From IMG/VR virus record IMGVR_UViG_3300036820_000331, positions 1 to 40,484 of that record: 40,484 bases of DNA; one strand, written 5' to 3'. Positions 10,081 through 40,264 of the stretch are shown one piece after another. The notes under the pieces are model-generated. The model saw only the letters and a program-made list of their open reading frames with translations, searched no databases and was not told where the DNA came from. Made by a program: the position numbers and the translations under genes. The stretch is from a virus. Positions within the stretch are counted from its first letter, which is position 1; every line of letters begins with the position of its first letter.

Positions 10081-10772
10081 CAGTGCACCATCCCGGCGAG
10101 ATGCCAGCCGAGCCACCCGAGCCCCAGCAGCAGCGACGGTGCGACCACGCAGTTCTCCCGCCAGGTGCCGGTAACGAAGGCGACCGGGCGCGGCAGGCCG
10201 TAGTGGCGCAGCGTCCAGGGCCACGCCAGCGGGCAGCCTTCCACCGTCAGCATGTCGCCGAGAATGTGCACGAGGCAGCCCAGGCCGCAGGCGAGCGGGA
10301 TCAGGATCATGTGCCAGCCGGTCACAGCTGCTGCGGAAGCGGCACCAAGGGCGGCTATGTCAGCCACGTGGCCATGAACGCGGAACGCCCGCAGTCCCGC
10401 AGCGATGGCCAGGGCCAGGAACAGGGCGAGAAGCACGAGCGCGGCGTCCAGCCACCACAGCGAGTCCCATGGATGCGCGCCGAACAGCGTGGCCAGGGCT
10501 GCGTAGCCCGTGAACACAGCTACGCCCAGCAAAGAGTGAGTGCCATGCCGGTGGCCGCCGCTGACCTTCTCCACGTACCAGGCGAAGCCCTCGGACAGAA
10601 AGCCCAGCGAACGGGCCGCGCATGAGCCCACACAGTCCAGGTCGGGCAGGACTGCGAAGCAGGCCGTGAAGCCAGTCAGCGCGAGCGCGGGAACCAGCGA
10701 CAGGTGCAGCCCGAACTCGGCCACGGCCAGCCCGGTTGCCGCTCCGCTCAGAGCATGATCGCGGCCGAGCAT
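10080..10772 (-). CDS. DUF457/YdjM-type membrane-bound metal-dependent hydrolase-like protein
   Basis: The chosen start is ATG 10772 (GGAGGG upstream), giving 230 residues beginning MLGRDHALSG; the longer reading frame overlaps other genes. The family signature is clear: an N-terminal H-x6-8-G segment, DLD after the first helices, the HRHGTHSL motif, and HILGD followed by CPLAWPW near the end, with about five membrane helices between. These His and Asp residues suggest a metal site. Members are common in phages, plasmids and host chromosomes, and their substrate is generally unknown. The stop overlaps the DUF2637 start. Confidence 0.8.
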   Translation of the reverse strand: MLGRDHALSGAATGLAVAEFGLHLSLVPALALTGFTACFAVLPDLDCVGSCAARSLGFLSEGFAWYVEKVSGGHRHGTHSLLGVAVFTGYAALATLFGAHPWDSLWWLDAALVLLALFLALAIAAGLRAFRVHGHVADIAALGAASAAAVTGWHMILIPLACGLGCLVHILGDMLTVEGCPLAWPWTLRHYGLPRPVAFVTGTWRENCVVAPSLLLGLGWLGWHLAGMVH

Positions 10773-23380: not shown

Positions 23381-23483
23381 CACCTTCACGCATCTTCACA
23401 CCTCTGTCTAGCCGACTCGCGCCGCTCGCCGAACCGGATGTTAACACCTGCTACGAAGGGCCGTGAAGGTTGCACACCTTCAC
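23381..23483. promoter_or_regulatory. Operator region between repressor and early operon
   Basis: Direct repeats CACCTTCAC (23381-23389) and CATCTTCAC (23391-23399) lie just before the repressor start. A palindrome, GTGAAGGT (23463-23470) with ACCTTCAC (23476-23483), lies before the rightward operon. TTGCAC (23470-23475) and TAGCGT (23494-23499) could form the rightward promoter with an 18-base spacer overlapped by the palindrome. TGTTAACA at 23439-23446 is another small palindrome. Confidence 0.65.
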
Positions 23484-23573
23484 ACTTATGGAGTAGCGTC
23501 GCGGCGCAACGGGTTCCGCCCGGTCGAACGGACGGAACCCAGATAACCGACACCTTGGAAGGAAGGTGCAGGC

Positions 23574-24239
23574 ATGGCTAAGCCTAACTCCGCGGTCTCA
23601 GCGGAAGCCCAGGCGCCGAAGGTCATCCGGCTCCGGCGGATCGAGGACATGGTCCTCGTGACCAGGATCGAGGGCAAGACTCCTCTCATCCCGCACCGCT
23701 GGTCAGAGAAGGCCATCCGGATGATGGCCGAGAAGCAGCAGCAAGAGACCACGACCAGCGCGAAACCGCAGCGGGAGCCGAAGAACCCCGAACAGGAAGC
23801 GCACGACTCCTGTTACTGGCTGGATGTCACCGACGATGGCGGCAATACCGTCACCAAGGGTGCGATGCCAGCGACGGCTTTCAAGGCGAGCATGGTTGGA
23901 GCATGCCGGTTCTACGGCGGCATCACGATGGTGCAGGCAAAGCAGCTGTTCTACGTCGAGGGCAGCGGGGCGGATCAGCTCGTGCCGATCGACGGCGAGC
24001 CGGTCATGCGGCAGGACACTCCGCGGAACGCGACCGGCGTGGCCGACCTTCGCTACCGGATGATGTTCTACCCGTGGTCGGCGACGCTCCGCGTCCGGTA
24101 CATCCCCACGATGATCGACCCTGATTCGGTGCTCGCGCTGCTGGACGCCGGCGGCAAGGGTGGCGTCGGAGACTGGCGCCCGTCGTCGCCGAAGTCATCG
24201 ACGGGCACTTTCGGGCAGTTCTCCGTGATGGAGGGCTGA
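23574..24239 (+). CDS. Conserved phage protein of unknown function, first gene of early operon
   Basis: This 221-residue protein lies behind GGAAGGAAGG. It begins with a polar tail, then IRLRRIEDMVLVTRIEGKTPLIPHRWSEKA, a charged helix (EKQQQETT...), and a core with YWLD, AMPATAFKASMVGACRF, RYRMMFYPWSATLRVRYI and GDWRPSS...GTFGQFSV. This pattern recurs in prophage early regions near recombination genes. The alternating strand-helix arrangement suggests a nucleic-acid-binding fold, but no function is established. Confidence 0.65.
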   Translation: MAKPNSAVSAEAQAPKVIRLRRIEDMVLVTRIEGKTPLIPHRWSEKAIRMMAEKQQQETTTSAKPQREPKNPEQEAHDSCYWLDVTDDGGNTVTKGAMPATAFKASMVGACRFYGGITMVQAKQLFYVEGSGADQLVPIDGEPVMRQDTPRNATGVADLRYRMMFYPWSATLRVRYIPTMIDPDSVLALLDAGGKGGVGDWRPSSPKSSTGTFGQFSVMEG

Positions 24240-24556
24240 GCAAGGCAGTCAGGGCATGGCGCGGCGCGGCGCGGCCTGGCCGGGCGGGGCGACGCGAGGC
24301 GAGGTACGGCTGGGCAGTCTTGGCGAGGTTGGGCGGGACTGGGCAGGGCTGGACTTGGAATGGCATGGCCCGGCGGGCACGGACTGGCATGGCGAGGATA
24401 GGCATGGCCCGGCAGGTGCGGCATGGCAGGGCATGGCTCGGTTGGGACGGGCAGGGTGGGGCACGGCGCGGCGGGGCAGGCGTGGCGCGGCTCGGCCTGG
24501 GAGGGCGGGGCGTGGCGCGGTCCGGCGTGGCTGGGCGCGGCAGGCCTTACAGCGAG
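24240..24556 (+). repeat. Five-base-period GG array, upstream copy
   Basis: For about 300 bases the plus strand can be cut into five-base units in which GG recurs at a constant phase (units such as GGCAT, GGCGC, GGCTG, GGCAG), with occasional phase slips. Bases between the GG pairs vary widely. The strand is very G-rich and poor in A. The period of five is incompatible with codon structure, and the open frames through it are by-products of few stop codons. A similar array lies on the other side of the next gene. Confidence 0.7.
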
Positions 24557-24570
24557 AAAGGAGTTCTGCA

Positions 24571-25269
24571 ATGGCAACCACCAAGGTTCGCCTGACCGAC
24601 TTGGTCGAGGACTACGACCTGTATCCCCGGCACGCCGTGGACGGCAGCTATGTCGCCGAGCTTGCGAGAGCGATCACGGCTGGCGACAAGTTGCCCTCCC
24701 CGATTGTGGAGCGCAAATCCAAGCGCATCGTTGACGGCTTCCACCGCGTCCGGGCCTACCGTAAGGTTCTCGGCCGCGGCGGCGAGATCACCGTCGAGAT
24801 GCGCACCTACCCATCCGAGACCGAGCTTCTCAAGGAAGCGATTGCGCTCAACGCGACCCACGGGCGCAAGTTCGATGCGCAGGACAAGACGCGCTCAGCG
24901 CTCATGCTCGAACGCGCCGGCGTCCCTGTCACGGAGATCAAGGTCGTGCTGCACACCACGGAGGAGCGCGTCCGCGAACTGCTGGCCCGCGTCGTCATCG
25001 TCAAGCCCGAGAAGGAGAACGCCGCCCCGGAGAAGTGGCCGGCCAAGCCGGTCATCTACCCGGGCAAGGGGCAGCCGCCGCGGGAAATCACCGAGCAGCA
25101 GCATTCGGTGATGGAGTCCTCATCCGGGCACCGGACGGCGCAGACGGTCACGCAGCTAACCCGCGAGATTGAGTCCGGGCTGATCGACTTCACGGCACCG
25201 GGCGTCGCCGAGAAGCTGTGGAAGCTGCACGACTCGATCGAGGCAACGGTCCCGGCTGTCGCTGCGTGA
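24571..25269 (+). CDS. ParB/Srx-like N-terminal domain protein
   Basis: ATG 24571, seven bases after AAAGGAG, gives 232 residues; the longer open frame upstream is only the GG array. Residues ~8-105 resemble the ParB-N fold: DLYPRHAVDGSYVAELARAI, PIVERKSKRIVDGFHRVRAY with the DGFHR signature at 55-59, and an ALNATHGRKFDAQDKTRSALML segment. A helical region with ITEIKVVLHTTEERVRELLARV follows, which may be the DNA-binding part. ParB-like proteins bind or cleave DNA and may use CTP. Its position between two GG arrays suggests they could be its binding sites. Confidence 0.75.
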   Translation: MATTKVRLTDLVEDYDLYPRHAVDGSYVAELARAITAGDKLPSPIVERKSKRIVDGFHRVRAYRKVLGRGGEITVEMRTYPSETELLKEAIALNATHGRKFDAQDKTRSALMLERAGVPVTEIKVVLHTTEERVRELLARVVIVKPEKENAAPEKWPAKPVIYPGKGQPPREITEQQHSVMESSSGHRTAQTVTQLTREIESGLIDFTAPGVAEKLWKLHDSIEATVPAVAA

Positions 25270-25610
25270 CCCTCAGGGCCGGGGAATGGCCGTCGTGGTT
25301 CGGCAGGTCTGGGCCCGGCTAGGTGTGGCTCGGCAGTCAAGGTCAGGCGAGGTTCGGCTGGGCGAGGCGCGGGTTGGTGGGGCCGGGCGCGCGTAGGCGC
25401 GGCAAGGAGTGGCAGTCATGGCAAGGGTAGGCCGGGCCTGGCGTGGCTGGGTGAGGCATGACGAGGCAAGGAGCGGCACGGCAGTCGAGGTTTGGTGGGG
25501 CCGGGACAGGCTGGGTTAGGCGCGGCACGGTTCGGTATGGCTCGGCAGGCGCGACGGGGCATGGTCAGGCGCGGCTCGGCGCGGCAGGGCGGCCACGGCC
25601 AGGAACTAAC
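25270..25610 (+). repeat. Five-base-period GG array, downstream copy
   Basis: This copy has the same character as the array at 24240: GG recurs every five bases across about 330 bases, with slips (units such as GGTTC, GGCAG, GGCTC, GGCAC, GGTAT). It is again G-rich on the plus strand. It lies between the ParB-like gene and a leaderless HTH gene. No long direct repeat is shared with the first array, so the two are alike in pattern, not in exact sequence. Confidence 0.7.
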
Positions 25611-25615
25611 CAAAC

Positions 25616-25666
25616 CCTAGTGTGAAGGTGCTTGACGTTCACGCACCTTCACACTAGGATCCTTTC
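25616..25666 (+). promoter_or_regulatory. Promoter within a 16-base inverted repeat operator
   Basis: CCTAGTGTGAAGGTGC (25616-25631) is a perfect inverted repeat of 25643-25658. TTGACG (25632-25637) sits in the loop and TAGGAT (25655-25660) lies 17 bases downstream. The transcription start would fall at about 25667, the A of the ATG, so the message is probably leaderless. The GTGAAGGT core matches the operators at 23381-23483. Confidence 0.8.
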
Positions 25667-25897
25667 ATGCGCGGACCCAAGAGCCCTCTTGATCACGAGC
25701 CCGAGGCCGTTGAGTACGCCCGCCGCAAGGCCGGCCTGAGCAAGACAGATCTGGCGAAGCGGGTGGGTGTCTCACTCGCCCTCATCAGCCAGATCGAGAG
25801 CGGCGTCAGCAACGCAACGCCCGCGATGATTCTCAAGCTGGCCGAAGCGCTCAACTGCCCCGTCGTGGTTCTGGAGCGCAAGCGAGCGGTCGCATGA
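25667..25897 (+). CDS. Cro/XRE-type HTH protein, probably leaderless mRNA
   Basis: The protein has 76 residues with a textbook HTH: AVEYARRKAGLSKTDLAKRVGVS, then LALISQIESGVSNATPAMILKLAEALN and a short end. No ribosome binding site precedes ATG 25667, and the promoter -10 ends six bases upstream. The stop overlaps the next start (ATGA). It may be the Cro-like partner of the repressor encoded at 22962-23375. Confidence 0.85.
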   Translation: MRGPKSPLDHEPEAVEYARRKAGLSKTDLAKRVGVSLALISQIESGVSNATPAMILKLAEALNCPVVVLERKRAVA

Positions 25898-28372: not shown

Positions 28373-28962
28373 ACGGCCCGATCGGCTGGCCGCCCCTGCG
28401 CCACCGCCCCCGGCCACCGCGAGGCCGCCACCGCGCCCTTGAAACCGTCCCGGAGTCCGACATGCCACCCATCCCAGCCCCGCCGCAGCACAGCACCGCA
28501 CCACAGCCATCCCTGCCCCCGCCGCCAGTCCCGGCCGAGCCCGAGAAGACCGTCCAGTGCGGATGGTGCAAAGTCATGGGCCCGCTGTCGCAGATCCCCG
28601 GCAGCGGCGGGTGGTACCGGTGCGCCAAGCTCTGGGAGTGCATCCCGCGGCAGCTGGCCGGTGGCCTGCCCGCACCGCTGTCCCCGGCAGGCACGCCGCC
28701 GCTGGAGCCTCTTCCCGTCGCTGAGCCTGAACCCCCCGTAGTCCTGCCACCCGCACAAGAGGCAGCGATGGAGCGGTTCAACGAGGCCACCGACGCACAG
28801 GACGCAGCCGAAGGCAAAGACCGCAGCAAGGACGGGGTGACGCCTGAGGCAGACGCGGAGGCTCCCGCAGACACCACGGAACCCGCTCCCGTCGCTGCCG
28901 AAGACGCGGCTGAGGCTGCCGCGCCGACTGCTGAGACCCTGGACGGCGGCGAGGGCGAGTGA
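28369..28962 (+). CDS. Pro/Ala-rich protein with Cys motif, upstream of exonuclease
   Basis: ATG 28369 (ATGA) gives 197 residues. The N-terminal ~60 residues are Pro-rich; residues ~62-90 hold CGWCKVMG and GGWYRCAKLWEC, a possible zinc site; the last ~70 are acidic and Ala-rich, disordered in character. It could be a scaffold or ssDNA-linked partner of the recombination proteins, but no family is recognised. Confidence 0.55.
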   Translation: MNGPIGWPPLRHRPRPPRGRHRALETVPESDMPPIPAPPQHSTAPQPSLPPPPVPAEPEKTVQCGWCKVMGPLSQIPGSGGWYRCAKLWECIPRQLAGGLPAPLSPAGTPPLEPLPVAEPEPPVVLPPAQEAAMERFNEATDAQDAAEGKDRSKDGVTPEADAEAPADTTEPAPVAAEDAAEAAAPTAETLDGGEGE

Positions 28963-30014
28963 ACGGCGTCCTGATTCCGACCGCCAGCGAGGCCGAGTGG
29001 CAGCACGCCCGCCGCAAGGGCGTGACCGCCAGCGAAATAGCCGTGGTGATGGGCCTGTCGCCCTACGACTCGCCTTTCTCTCTGTATCACCGCAAGCTCG
29101 GCAACCTGCCTGACCAGGAAGACAGCATGGCCCTGGCCATCGGCCGCCACTTCGAGGACTTCGTCGCCGGCCGGTTTGCCGAGCAGCACGCCGAGTTCCA
29201 CGTCAGTGGCGATGGCCGCGCGCTGTACGCACACCCGTACCGGCTCTGGCAGCTGGCAACCCCGGACCGGATCGTCAACGATGTCCGCCTCGACTTCCTT
29301 AACGGCGTCGACGATGCGTTCGAGGAGTACGAGCCGTACGCAGTGCTGGAGTGCAAGACCGACGGCGGGTTCGACGGCTGGGGCGACGACGGCACCGACG
29401 AAATCCCCGTCCACTACCGCTGCCAGGTGCTGTGGCAGATGGACGTCATGGGCGTGCAGGCCGCGTTCGTGGCCTGCCTGTTCATGAACCGGCGGCAGCT
29501 GCGCGTTTACCCGATCACGCTGGACGACGCGGCGCACGCCGACCTGAAGCTGATGCGCGAGGAAGCCGAGACGTTCCTCGGCCGCCTCCGCGAGGGCACC
29601 GAGCCCGGCGTCGACTGGCGCCCGGCCACCCGCCAGGCGCTCAACCAGCTGCACCCGGAGCTTGAGGACCGCGAGGTCATCATCCCGCGGCACCTCGGCG
29701 TGGCTTACCAGGCCGCCGTGCGCCGGCACGAGCTGGCCGAGCGGCGCAAGGACGAACTGGCCAGCCGGGTGCTGGCCGAGGTCGGCGACGGCCGGTACGC
29801 GATCGAGGCGGAGACCGGCCGCAAGGTCGCCACCCGCTCGGTCAGCAAGCCCAAGCGCATCGACACGAAGAAGTTGCGCGCCGAGCACCCCGATATCGCC
29901 GCGGCGTGCACCAGGTCCCCGAAGCCCGAAGTCCGGCTGATCCCCGCGAGGCACGCAAGCACCGCCCGGGTGATCCGCCCCGCCCTGACAGCAGCATCCA
30001 AGGAGCAGTCATGA
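28959..30014 (+). CDS. YqaJ-family (lambda-exonuclease-like) viral recombinase nuclease
   Basis: GTG 28959 gives 351 residues. The domain signatures are visible: GVTASEIAVVMGLSPYDSPFSLY (21-43), E66 in HFEDF, D103 in TPDRI, E131-x-K133 in LECKT and Q156. These form the metal site of YqaJ/RecE-type 5'-3' exonucleases, which resect double-strand ends to give 3' overhangs for an annealing protein. recT lies next to it, split off only by an IS. The C-terminal ~100 residues are basic and helical. It would act in phage recombination. Confidence 0.85.
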   Translation: MNGVLIPTASEAEWQHARRKGVTASEIAVVMGLSPYDSPFSLYHRKLGNLPDQEDSMALAIGRHFEDFVAGRFAEQHAEFHVSGDGRALYAHPYRLWQLATPDRIVNDVRLDFLNGVDDAFEEYEPYAVLECKTDGGFDGWGDDGTDEIPVHYRCQVLWQMDVMGVQAAFVACLFMNRRQLRVYPITLDDAAHADLKLMREEAETFLGRLREGTEPGVDWRPATRQALNQLHPELEDREVIIPRHLGVAYQAAVRRHELAERRKDELASRVLAEVGDGRYAIEAETGRKVATRSVSKPKRIDTKKLRAEHPDIAAACTRSPKPEVRLIPARHASTARVIRPALTAASKEQS

Positions 30015-31285: not shown

Positions 31286-31440
31286 GAAAGCTCCTTGCGA
31301 TGGCAGCGACGACCCGGCGAGGAGGACAGCTACCGGGTGGTCACTAACCGGCGCTCTGCGGCGCGTCTCCCTGTTGCCAGTCCGTGTCCCCGGAAGGGCC
31401 GGGGGCGGTGGTGTCATGCTGGCCGTTTTCCGGCTACCGC
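31286..31440 (-). ncRNA. Candidate bridge RNA region of the IS110 element
   Basis: The non-coding end upstream of the transposase can form a hairpin on the minus strand: GCCAG/CTGGC (31376-31380 and 31419-31423) around an inner stem CCCCGG/CCGGGG (31388-31393 and 31399-31404). The internal loop between them holds GTGTCATG (31411-31418), the exact reverse complement of CATGACAC at the left insertion flank (30010-30017). It also holds AGTCCGT (31379-31385), which matches AGACCGT on the right flank (31444-31450) at six of seven bases. This is what a target-binding loop would show. Full folding was not computed. Confidence 0.6.
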
Positions 31441-31518
31441 ACTAGACCGTCACCCCGGCCCCCGCCGAGTCCCAACAACGAGCACCGTAACGGTGCCCGC
31501 ACTAAGGATGGTGCCCTA

Positions 31519-32748
31519 GTGACCGCCCAGACCGTTTCCCAGGCCGTCGAGAAGCGCGACAGCGGGCCCGTCGCGATCATGTGGACCCGCAAGCGCCACT
31601 TCGATGCCGTGCTGCCCGGGTCGGTGGACGTTGAGGCGTTCCTCGGCACGGCCGCCGGCGCCCTGTACGCGTCGGACGTGCCGGGCAAGAAGCTCACGCT
31701 GATGGGCTGCGCGCAGGCCAACCCCGACAGTCTGATCGTCTCGCTGATGGAATGCGCGGCGCTCGGCCACATGCCCGGCACCGACGAGTACTACCTGACC
31801 CCCCGCATGGACCACGGCCGGCCGAAAGTCCTCGGCATCGAGGGCTACCGCGGCGTGATCGAGCGCATGTACCGCTCCGGCGCGGTCGCGAAGGTCGTCG
31901 TCCGCGAGGTGTGCGAGCGCGACTACTTCGACTACCGCGAGGGCGAGATGGACATCCCTGTCCACCGGTTCGCCCAGGGCACCACCGGGGCCGCGTTCTT
32001 CTCCTCCGCCCAGTCCCGCGGGCAGATGGTCGGCGGCTACTCCTACGCCCAGCTCACCAACGGCTCGTTCTCCCGTGTCGTCATCCTCACCCGCGACGAC
32101 ATCTTCGCTGCGCGCGACTCCGGCGGCTACAAGCCCGACGACAGCTTCAGCCCGTGGAACCGTCTCGATGGCGGCGCGGAGCACCCCGAGTTCACGGGCC
32201 GGAGCATGTGGTGGAAGACACTCGCCAAGCGGCTCGAGCCGTGGGTGCCGACCAGCCGCGAGTACCGGCGCGAGCAGTTGCGCGCATCGGCCGCCGCAGC
32301 CGAGCAGGCGCGCCCGCGGGCCGGGCTGGGCAGCCTTCCCGACGCCCCGGCTCTGCCCAGCGGCCACAGCGACATCGTTGAGGCAGAGATTGTGGAGCAC
32401 CCGGCCGTGGCCGCCCAGGCCGGGCAGGCGCCCGCTGAGACCTCGGCGTCGGCTACCGAGCAGGGAACCCCGGACGGCTCGCCGGCGAGCCCCGGGCCGG
32501 CTGCATCCGGTATAGCGACCGGGAGGCTGGAGCAGCTCCTCCAGGAGGTCCCGCTGGGGACTGCGGCCGACCGCGCCGAGTTCATCGCCTGGGTGACCGG
32601 GCATCCGGCCGATGAGGAACTCACCCCGGCCGATGTCAAGAAGCTGACCGCGCGGCTGGACGGCGCGCTCAAGGCGGTCAAGGGCAACGGCGAGCAGGCC
32701 GCCTCGGCGCTGTGGGAGCAGCACAAGCAGGCCACGGGCGCCAAGTGA
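31519..32748 (+). CDS. recT: RecT-family single-strand annealing protein
   Basis: GTG 31519 has AAGGA at 31504-31508 and a small GCACCG-TAA-CGGTGC hairpin (31482-31496) before it; the product is 409 residues. The core (about 1-250) shows the RecT pattern: LTLMGCAQANPDSLIVSLMECAALGHMPG, YYLTPRMDHGRPKVLGIEGYRGVIERMYRSG, VCERDYFDY and SMWWKTLAKRLEPWVP. The C-terminal ~150 residues are a disordered Ala/Pro/Glu-rich tail, then a helical end. RecT coats single strands and pairs complementary DNA after YqaJ resection. The upstream coupling with the exonuclease is now broken by the IS. Confidence 0.9.
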   Translation: MTAQTVSQAVEKRDSGPVAIMWTRKRHFDAVLPGSVDVEAFLGTAAGALYASDVPGKKLTLMGCAQANPDSLIVSLMECAALGHMPGTDEYYLTPRMDHGRPKVLGIEGYRGVIERMYRSGAVAKVVVREVCERDYFDYREGEMDIPVHRFAQGTTGAAFFSSAQSRGQMVGGYSYAQLTNGSFSRVVILTRDDIFAARDSGGYKPDDSFSPWNRLDGGAEHPEFTGRSMWWKTLAKRLEPWVPTSREYRREQLRASAAAAEQARPRAGLGSLPDAPALPSGHSDIVEAEIVEHPAVAAQAGQAPAETSASATEQGTPDGSPASPGPAASGIATGRLEQLLQEVPLGTAADRAEFIAWVTGHPADEELTPADVKKLTARLDGALKAVKGNGEQAASALWEQHKQATGAK

Positions 32749-39156: not shown

Positions 39157-39530
39157 CCCCCAGGACCCCCAAGCGCGCCCCTGAGGCCACCCCCGGGCCT
39201 CTTGCGGCGAAGTCCTGCCCCAGTGTGCCGCTAGCCCCCGTGGCGGCCGGGCAGGGCGACCCGGCGGCGGCGAGCGAGCACCTCGAGGCCCTCGCCGCCG
39301 CCGGGCTAGACGTCCCGGAGGGCGGTGCGGCTGGGGAAGGCCGTTCCCGCCCTCCGGGAGCCACACCAGCCCAGGGCGATGCCGAGGGCCGCAAGGCGTG
39401 GCAGGCAGCGATCAGCGCCAGGAACGCCGCTCAGCGACGGGGAAGGGCGCGCCCGCGCTACTCAGCCGACCCGTACGCCAAGGGCACCCGCGGGGCCAGG
39501 AAGCTGCCGCCGCCGAAGGACGGTGCGTGA
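39153..39530 (+). CDS. Small Ala/Gly-rich protein
   Basis: ATG 39153 (ATGA) gives 125 residues of low complexity (Pro, Ala, Gly) with a basic end (AQRRGRARPRYSADPYAKGTRGARK). It may be disordered and nucleic-acid-binding. It overlaps the methylase start. Confidence 0.5.
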   Translation: MTPRTPKRAPEATPGPLAAKSCPSVPLAPVAAGQGDPAAASEHLEALAAAGLDVPEGGAAGEGRSRPPGATPAQGDAEGRKAWQAAISARNAAQRRGRARPRYSADPYAKGTRGARKLPPPKDGA

Positions 39531-40264
39531 TGGCTCGCCTGAGGCGCCCGCGCGAGGCGGGCGGGGACCGGCCGGTGCTGTTCGACCTCTGCTGCAAGCA
39601 GGGCGGGGCAGGCATGGGCTACGACCGCGCCGGCTTCCGCGTCATCGGCGTGGACACCGAGCCGCAGCCGCGCTTCCCGTTCGAATTCGTTCAGGCCGAC
39701 GCCATGCAGGTCCTGGAATACCTCGCCGATGAGGCCGAGCCGTGGCCCGGTGCGCCCTATCCCGCGGCCATTCACGGCAGCCCGCCATGCCAGGACCACT
39801 CAGCCACGAACGTGCTGACGAGTCCCCACGGCACCGCGTGGATGCTCACGGCGATGCGCAAGCAGCTGACCAGGCTCGGCATCCCCTGGGTGCTCGAGAA
39901 CGTCCGCGGTGCACCGCTGGCACACCAGGATGACCTGTTCGGCGCCAACGGGCTCGAGCTCTGCGGCTGCATGTTCCCGGACTTGCGCGGCCAGTTGTAC
40001 GAGGCCCGCTGGTTCGAGACGTCGTTCCCGGTCCCGCAGCCACCGCACCGCCGCCACGCCTGGCCGCTGACGAAGATGGGCCGGCCGCCCAAGCCCGGCG
40101 AGTGCATGCAGGTGACCGGCCACTTCGCGGACGCGGACGAGGGGCGCCGCAGGATGGGCGCTCCCTGGATGACGCGGGATGGCCTGGCACAGGCGATCCC
40201 TCCGGCCTACGCGGCCCTCCTCGGCGCGGTTTTGCTCGAGCACATCGCGGAGCGTGCAGCATGA
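39530..40264 (+). CDS. Phage C5 cytosine DNA methyltransferase
   Basis: ATG 39530 overlaps the upstream stop by one base (TGATG) and gives 244 residues. Motif I is LFDLCCKQGGAGMGYDRAGF, motif IV is GSPPCQ with catalytic C87, and motif VI is ENVRG (123-127). The protein is shorter than bacterial Dcm-type enzymes, as is common in actinophages, and the target-recognition part is compact. It is the last gene of the rightward operon. Confidence 0.85.
   Translation: MARLRRPREAGGDRPVLFDLCCKQGGAGMGYDRAGFRVIGVDTEPQPRFPFEFVQADAMQVLEYLADEAEPWPGAPYPAAIHGSPPCQDHSATNVLTSPHGTAWMLTAMRKQLTRLGIPWVLENVRGAPLAHQDDLFGANGLELCGCMFPDLRGQLYEARWFETSFPVPQPPHRRHAWPLTKMGRPPKPGECMQVTGHFADADEGRRRMGAPWMTRDGLAQAIPPAYAALLGAVLLEHIAERAA

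Follow-up and report, generated by a model that had tools for sequence, protein, structure and literature searches.

Introduction

The Viral Interference Programmable Repeat (VIPR), first described in a 2026 preprint (PMC13142463), is a system for RNA-guided DNA recognition that may predate CRISPR. As presented in the main text of that preprint, its protein, Vipr, is an ancestral RAMP, and its guide RNAs, designated vrRNAs, bear 9-16 GGY/NN repeats and an invariable structured 3' tail. The NN pairs read double-stranded DNA with one base skipped between pairs, and once bound, the complexes repress transcription. Competing phages and satellites serve as natural targets, and accessory (vap) genes differ by VIPR type. 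The evidence that guide RNAs are processed and form an RNP, that the 1-nt skip rule holds and that transcription is repressed comes from that work, on VIPR members other than the one considered here. Class 1 CRISPR RAMPs (Csm3/Cas7) share, according to the same source, a periodic guide with skipped bases.

The DNA studied here (the window) is the complete 40,484-nucleotide IMG/VR virus record IMGVR_UViG_3300036820_000331. An initial annotation, made from the sequence alone, had pointed out two arrays with GG at a five-base period on either side of a ParB-like gene, and had suggested that they are a binding platform for the ParB-like protein, an origin or partition site, or a track for strand annealing. 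A literature keyword search on pentameric repeats returned no relevant paper. Since a Vipr homologue with a Csm3/Cas7 RAMP fold is encoded at 23574-24239, we conclude, with a probability of about 0.93, that this part of a probably actinobacterial phage constitutes a VIPR locus, with vipr, two guide-RNA arrays and a ParB-like gene between them. The locus is a new member of the kind reported in 2026, and its ParB-like accessory gene may mark a variant.

Results

GGYNN arrays in the window. The predicted excess of GG pairs at lag 5, confined to two intervals, was found: the left interval (24240-24556) held 57 such pairs and the right interval (25270-25610) 51, as compared to means of 20.4 (sd 3.7, maximum 33) and 17.8 (sd 3.6, maximum 31) in 1000 dinucleotide-preserving shuffles, while lags of 4, 6 and 7 gave 25, 17 and 4 pairs (left) and 15, 18 and 6 pairs (right). 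A sliding lag-5 GG scan of the window found no third array; the next-best place (39391-39690, near a DNA methyltransferase gene), with 12 pairs observed and 4.8 expected, is probably due to chance. The refined array limits are 24244-24547 and 25277-25602, with GG on the coding (+) strand in both. The initial annotation had described the unit as GG followed by three variable bases; GG at a five-base step was upheld, while full variability of the other three was not, as the third base is mostly a pyrimidine (C in 34 of 49 clean units on the left and in 29 of 46 on the right). The unit is thus GGY plus a variable NN. A few degenerate units (e.g., CGCGA, GACTG, GCGTA) break the GGY pattern. A simple tandem repeat was ruled out by unit diversity (25-27 different NNN per array), and the view that the arrays are not coding stood as well.

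The slips previously described as occasional do exist, and they are regular: each is a 4-base GGCA (once GGCG) unit, and together they divide the arrays into 7-15-unit blocks. In the left array (+ strand) these marks lie at 24244, 24313, 24372, 24411, 24475 and 24539 and delimit blocks g1 (24248-24312), g2 (24317-24371), g3 (24376-24410), g4 (24415-24474) and g5 (24479-24538); in the right array (+ strand) GGCA marks at 25332, 25411, 25480 and 25544 delimit g6 (25297-25331), g7 (25336-25410), g8 (25415-25479), g9 (25484-25543) and g10 (25548-25582). Three of these ten blocks, the ends of which follow from the GGCA marks and not from RNA ends, are only 7 units long, and the degenerate units fall in g1, g2, g7, g8 and g10. 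We infer that each block between GGCA marks is one guide cassette. No structured 3' tail was recognised in the window, and Rfam, hammerhead families included, gave no match.

The vipr gene. Immediately upstream of the left array, an intact open frame (23574-24239, + strand) encodes a 221-aa protein that clustering, profile searches and a structure model identify as a RAMP. The family profile matched PDB entry 36pp ("SUSP1 Vipr protein") with E=3e-39, and the single window sequence did so with E 0.0066; 70 of 71 aligned family members matched phrog_4652 (unknown function), and none of the 71 matched a meaningful Pfam family. An AlphaFold2 model of the window protein (pLDDT 92.7) retrieved Csm3/Cas7 RAMPs of CRISPR complexes by Foldseek (E 5.8e-6), and VIA-align superposed 154 residues at 3.3 A with Z 12.2. 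A single-sequence search of the viral contigs found no relatives of Vipr. Because a megablast search of phage records detected no nucleotide relatives of the window as a whole, the host is inferred only through the relatives of Vipr and RecT, which suggest that it is probably actinobacterial.

Association of arrays with vipr. A pattern scan of viral contigs found the array pattern to be common, with at least 120 stretches of ten in-phase GGs. Among the matches listed, arrays sit in intergenic gaps, and, where both neighbouring genes could be called, GG lay on the strand of both in 59 loci and opposite to both in 6, a tally made with a crude gene caller that was wrong for part of the window. 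Across 2954 units, position 3 was C in 73% and T in 19%, and positions 4 and 5 were near uniform. The 4-base slip unit was GGCA in 128 of 176 cases across array loci (CGCA in 17, GGCG in 14); the run between slips was most often 8-12 units long, with a mode of 9-11 units over 545 runs in 161 loci.

When same-strand proteins within 2.5 kb of the arrays were clustered, with the arrays masked beforehand, one dominant family (~205 aa, at a median distance of 23 bases) adjoined the arrays in 78 of 105 loci among the matches listed, and this family includes the gene at 23574-24239. Strong array loci (n=103, among the matches listed) contained vipr in 77 cases and the ParB-like gene in 2; in the remaining 26, vipr was not found within the fetched DNA, and several of these are contig edges or low-complexity stretches. 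The converse test started from 62 loci selected only through Vipr (50 contigs from bacterial genomes and 12 phage records). In 45 of them a lag-5 array lay on the same strand as vipr and no more than 1.5 kb from it; the lag-5 detector registered none in the other 17. None of the 62 had an array on the opposite strand, lags 4, 6 and 7 gave no arrays, and 391 kb of distant flank contained none. Among whole phage genomes, all 7 with vipr carried arrays, each at one place and on one strand, as compared to 0 of 8 genomes without vipr (absence judged from a tblastn list); the latter include Che8, Tweety and Fruitloop, which belong to the same genus as Quico. The defining partner of the arrays is thus the upstream gene vipr, and not primarily the ParB-like gene.

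Very long GGYNN arrays (~700-850 bases) were also seen beside vipr on two bacterial contigs and one viral contig (L130, 5226-6071; L158, 6669-7454; L024, 6310-7018). Public phage records annotate guide arrays partly as short "hypothetical proteins" (e.g., Florinda gp59, at 3032-3274 of L003), and similar small CDS lie over arrays in L177, L178, L185 and L186; translation of an array yields a spurious peptide rich in A, G, R and H.

The ParB-like gene. The array-flanked gene (24571-25269, + strand), also an intact open frame, encodes a ParB-like protein as first annotated: it matches phrog_1033, and Foldseek assigned the N-terminal half to ParB/Noc/KorB (7e-6 to ParB) from a weak model (pLDDT 67). 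Among 50,697 phage records, none contained a relative. In viral contigs, an alignment of three sequences used as the query located 21 ParB-like loci, and vipr adjoins the gene in 18 of them; two of the three loci lacking vipr end at a contig edge. The order vipr-array-ParB-array recurs in one locus (L101), and several ParB-vipr loci had no array according to the detector. The expectation that the ParB-like gene and the arrays form one unit thus held in independently found loci, and the frequency with which vipr adjoins it indicates that this gene is best seen as a linked accessory of the VIPR locus, i.e., a candidate vap gene.

Flanking elements. Upstream of vipr, a 12-mer (CACCTTCACACT; 23475-23486, + strand), which we take for a putative regulatory element, lies within an inverted repeat (GTGAAGGT-5-ACCTTCAC; 23463-23483). 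Downstream of the right array, a palindrome with 20-nt arms (25616-25658) contains two copies of CACCTTCACACT (25619-25630 and 25644-25655); it overlaps a promoter-like match (25632-25660) and precedes an HTH gene (25667-25897). Exact copies, or copies with 2 mismatches, bracket the vipr-array-ParB module (23381-23402 in addition to the three above) and are likely to be operators of a phage repressor. A RecE-like exonuclease (28959-30011) and a RecT-like annealing protein (31384-32745) are encoded 3-6 kb downstream of the arrays.

Guide targets. Within the window, the guides gave no self-match above shuffled guides, and a comparison of all guides with all fetched loci gave no skip-1 excess. 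Exact target scans of the viral contigs found no match for g4 or g8, and g8 had none at up to 3 mismatches in 395 actinomycete genomes. The single g9 match in the viral contigs (L124) was rejected, as its flanks were mismatched and the skip did not fall at the wobble base; four g7 and three g5 matches were judged to be chance because neighbouring units mostly mismatch. Two different guides, g9 and g5, met the same kind of gene, a MuB-like-looking AAA-ATPase, in partial matches (L124, 3803-3828; L212, 5203-5225; L214, 342-364) that are probably due to chance. The NN composition fitted codon positions 1-2 best (-3.992 vs -4.065 and -4.329 bits per NN). Guides that match coding DNA with the skip at the wobble base would give such a fit; its advantage over a uniform model was small.

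A candidate target emerged for the nearest named relative, mycobacteriophage Quico. At skip 1, with skipped bases falling on wobble positions, Quico cassette 2 agrees with Che8 at 10431-10460 in 19 of 20 bases; skips 0, 2 and 3 give 14, 17 and 15 bases, and the best site in Quico's own genome gives 14. In Che8 the matched gene carries the label "hypothetical"; Wachhund, Squirty and Minnie list it as tape measure, and these three have every NN position of the site unchanged, their only differences from Che8 there being at skipped bases. Tape-measure genes of the Che8 type in competing mycobacteriophages may be targets of this cassette; as one of 60 shuffled versions of the set of 29 guides with at least 9 units came within a single mismatch as well, the match is suggestive and not proof.

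Discussion

The window locus shares with the VIPR systems of SUSP1 and of P. fulva (type II), as far as the preprint's main text describes them (PMC13142463), a RAMP-fold Vipr homologue (36pp), carriage by a phage, a small accessory gene, and intergenic coding-strand GGY/NN arrays beside vipr with hypervariable NN; block lengths (7-15 units here, ~9-16 there) are also comparable. It differs from them in that its accessory gene is ParB-like and lies between two arrays, and in that its blocks follow head to tail with GGCA alone between them and no evident structured tail; ParB is absent from the main text of the preprint. Closer relatives occur in cluster F mycobacteriophages (Quico, Saal, Donkeykong, Brocalys and others), with 56% identity to the window Vipr, and in Gordonia phages, with 40-42%. 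Their Vipr homologues are annotated as "hypothetical protein", and their arrays share the GGCA marks and lie upstream of vipr in the Mycobacterium phages and downstream in the Gordonia phages; unlike the window, these phages have no ParB-like gene. Whole GGCA-delimited blocks are present or absent between near-identical cluster F phages, the arrays of which end in a constant block. Class 1 CRISPR RAMPs share the protein fold (Z ~12); their guides, however, have period 6 with exact repeats and spacers, as compared to period 5 with only GGY constant per unit in the window. CRISPR-Cas was rejected for the window, where we found no exact direct repeats with unique spacers and, in the genes examined, recognised nothing from a cas family.

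The earlier proposal that the arrays serve as a DNA binding platform or a parS-like partition site for the ParB-like protein draws on a gene with a ParB/Noc/KorB-type domain lying between both arrays, an arrangement that recurs in L101. Such a site is nevertheless very improbable: vipr occurs in 77 of the 103 strong array loci and the ParB-like gene in just 2, so that arrays as a rule do not form a ParB platform, several ParB-vipr loci have no detectable array, and the neighbours of the ParB-like gene are vipr and the HTH gene, with no ParA among the window genes examined. An origin or a track for RecT-family strand annealing, at five bases per subunit, likewise found no support. RecE-like and RecT-like genes are indeed present in the window, yet arrays lie within tens of bases of vipr and not of RecT, which is 6 kb away here, and three vipr-less phages of Quico's genus have no array; we give the annealing track almost no credence.

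If the region is a VIPR locus, it might still be decayed or silent in this virus, as some units in five blocks break GGY and no targets were found for the window guides. We consider this unlikely, since both frames and most units are intact and targets were likely missed; the locus is probably active. By analogy with the described systems, + strand transcription of the arrays would yield vrRNAs of ~7-15 GGYNN units delimited by GGCA, and Vipr subunits, presumably one per five bases, would coat each vrRNA, gripping GGY and leaving NN exposed. These exposed pairs would then read double-stranded DNA as NNx, passing over every third base and usually taking codon positions 1-2, and transcription of competing phages or prophages would be repressed by the bound complex. 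The virus thus probably uses the locus to silence genes in the viruses with which it competes. The ParB-like protein would assist on target DNA. More tentatively, the locus could represent a VIPR variant whose ParB/KorB-like protein acts, perhaps as a nucleotide-dependent DNA clamp, with the Vipr-guide complex to spread repression from the target, and whose GGCA-delimited cassettes are gained and lost whole, although we regard this as somewhat doubtful.

The locus extends VIPR to an uncultured, probably actinobacterial phage, and GGYNN arrays are probably widespread, with at least 120 stretches in viral contigs. Through its kin, VIPR reaches widely used Mycobacterium smegmatis phages, which are open to immediate tests. 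The testable additions include a GGCA mark between cassettes, the turnover of whole cassettes among near-identical phages, an accessory gene that is ParB-like, and a match to the tape-measure genes of rivals in which the skip falls at the wobble base.
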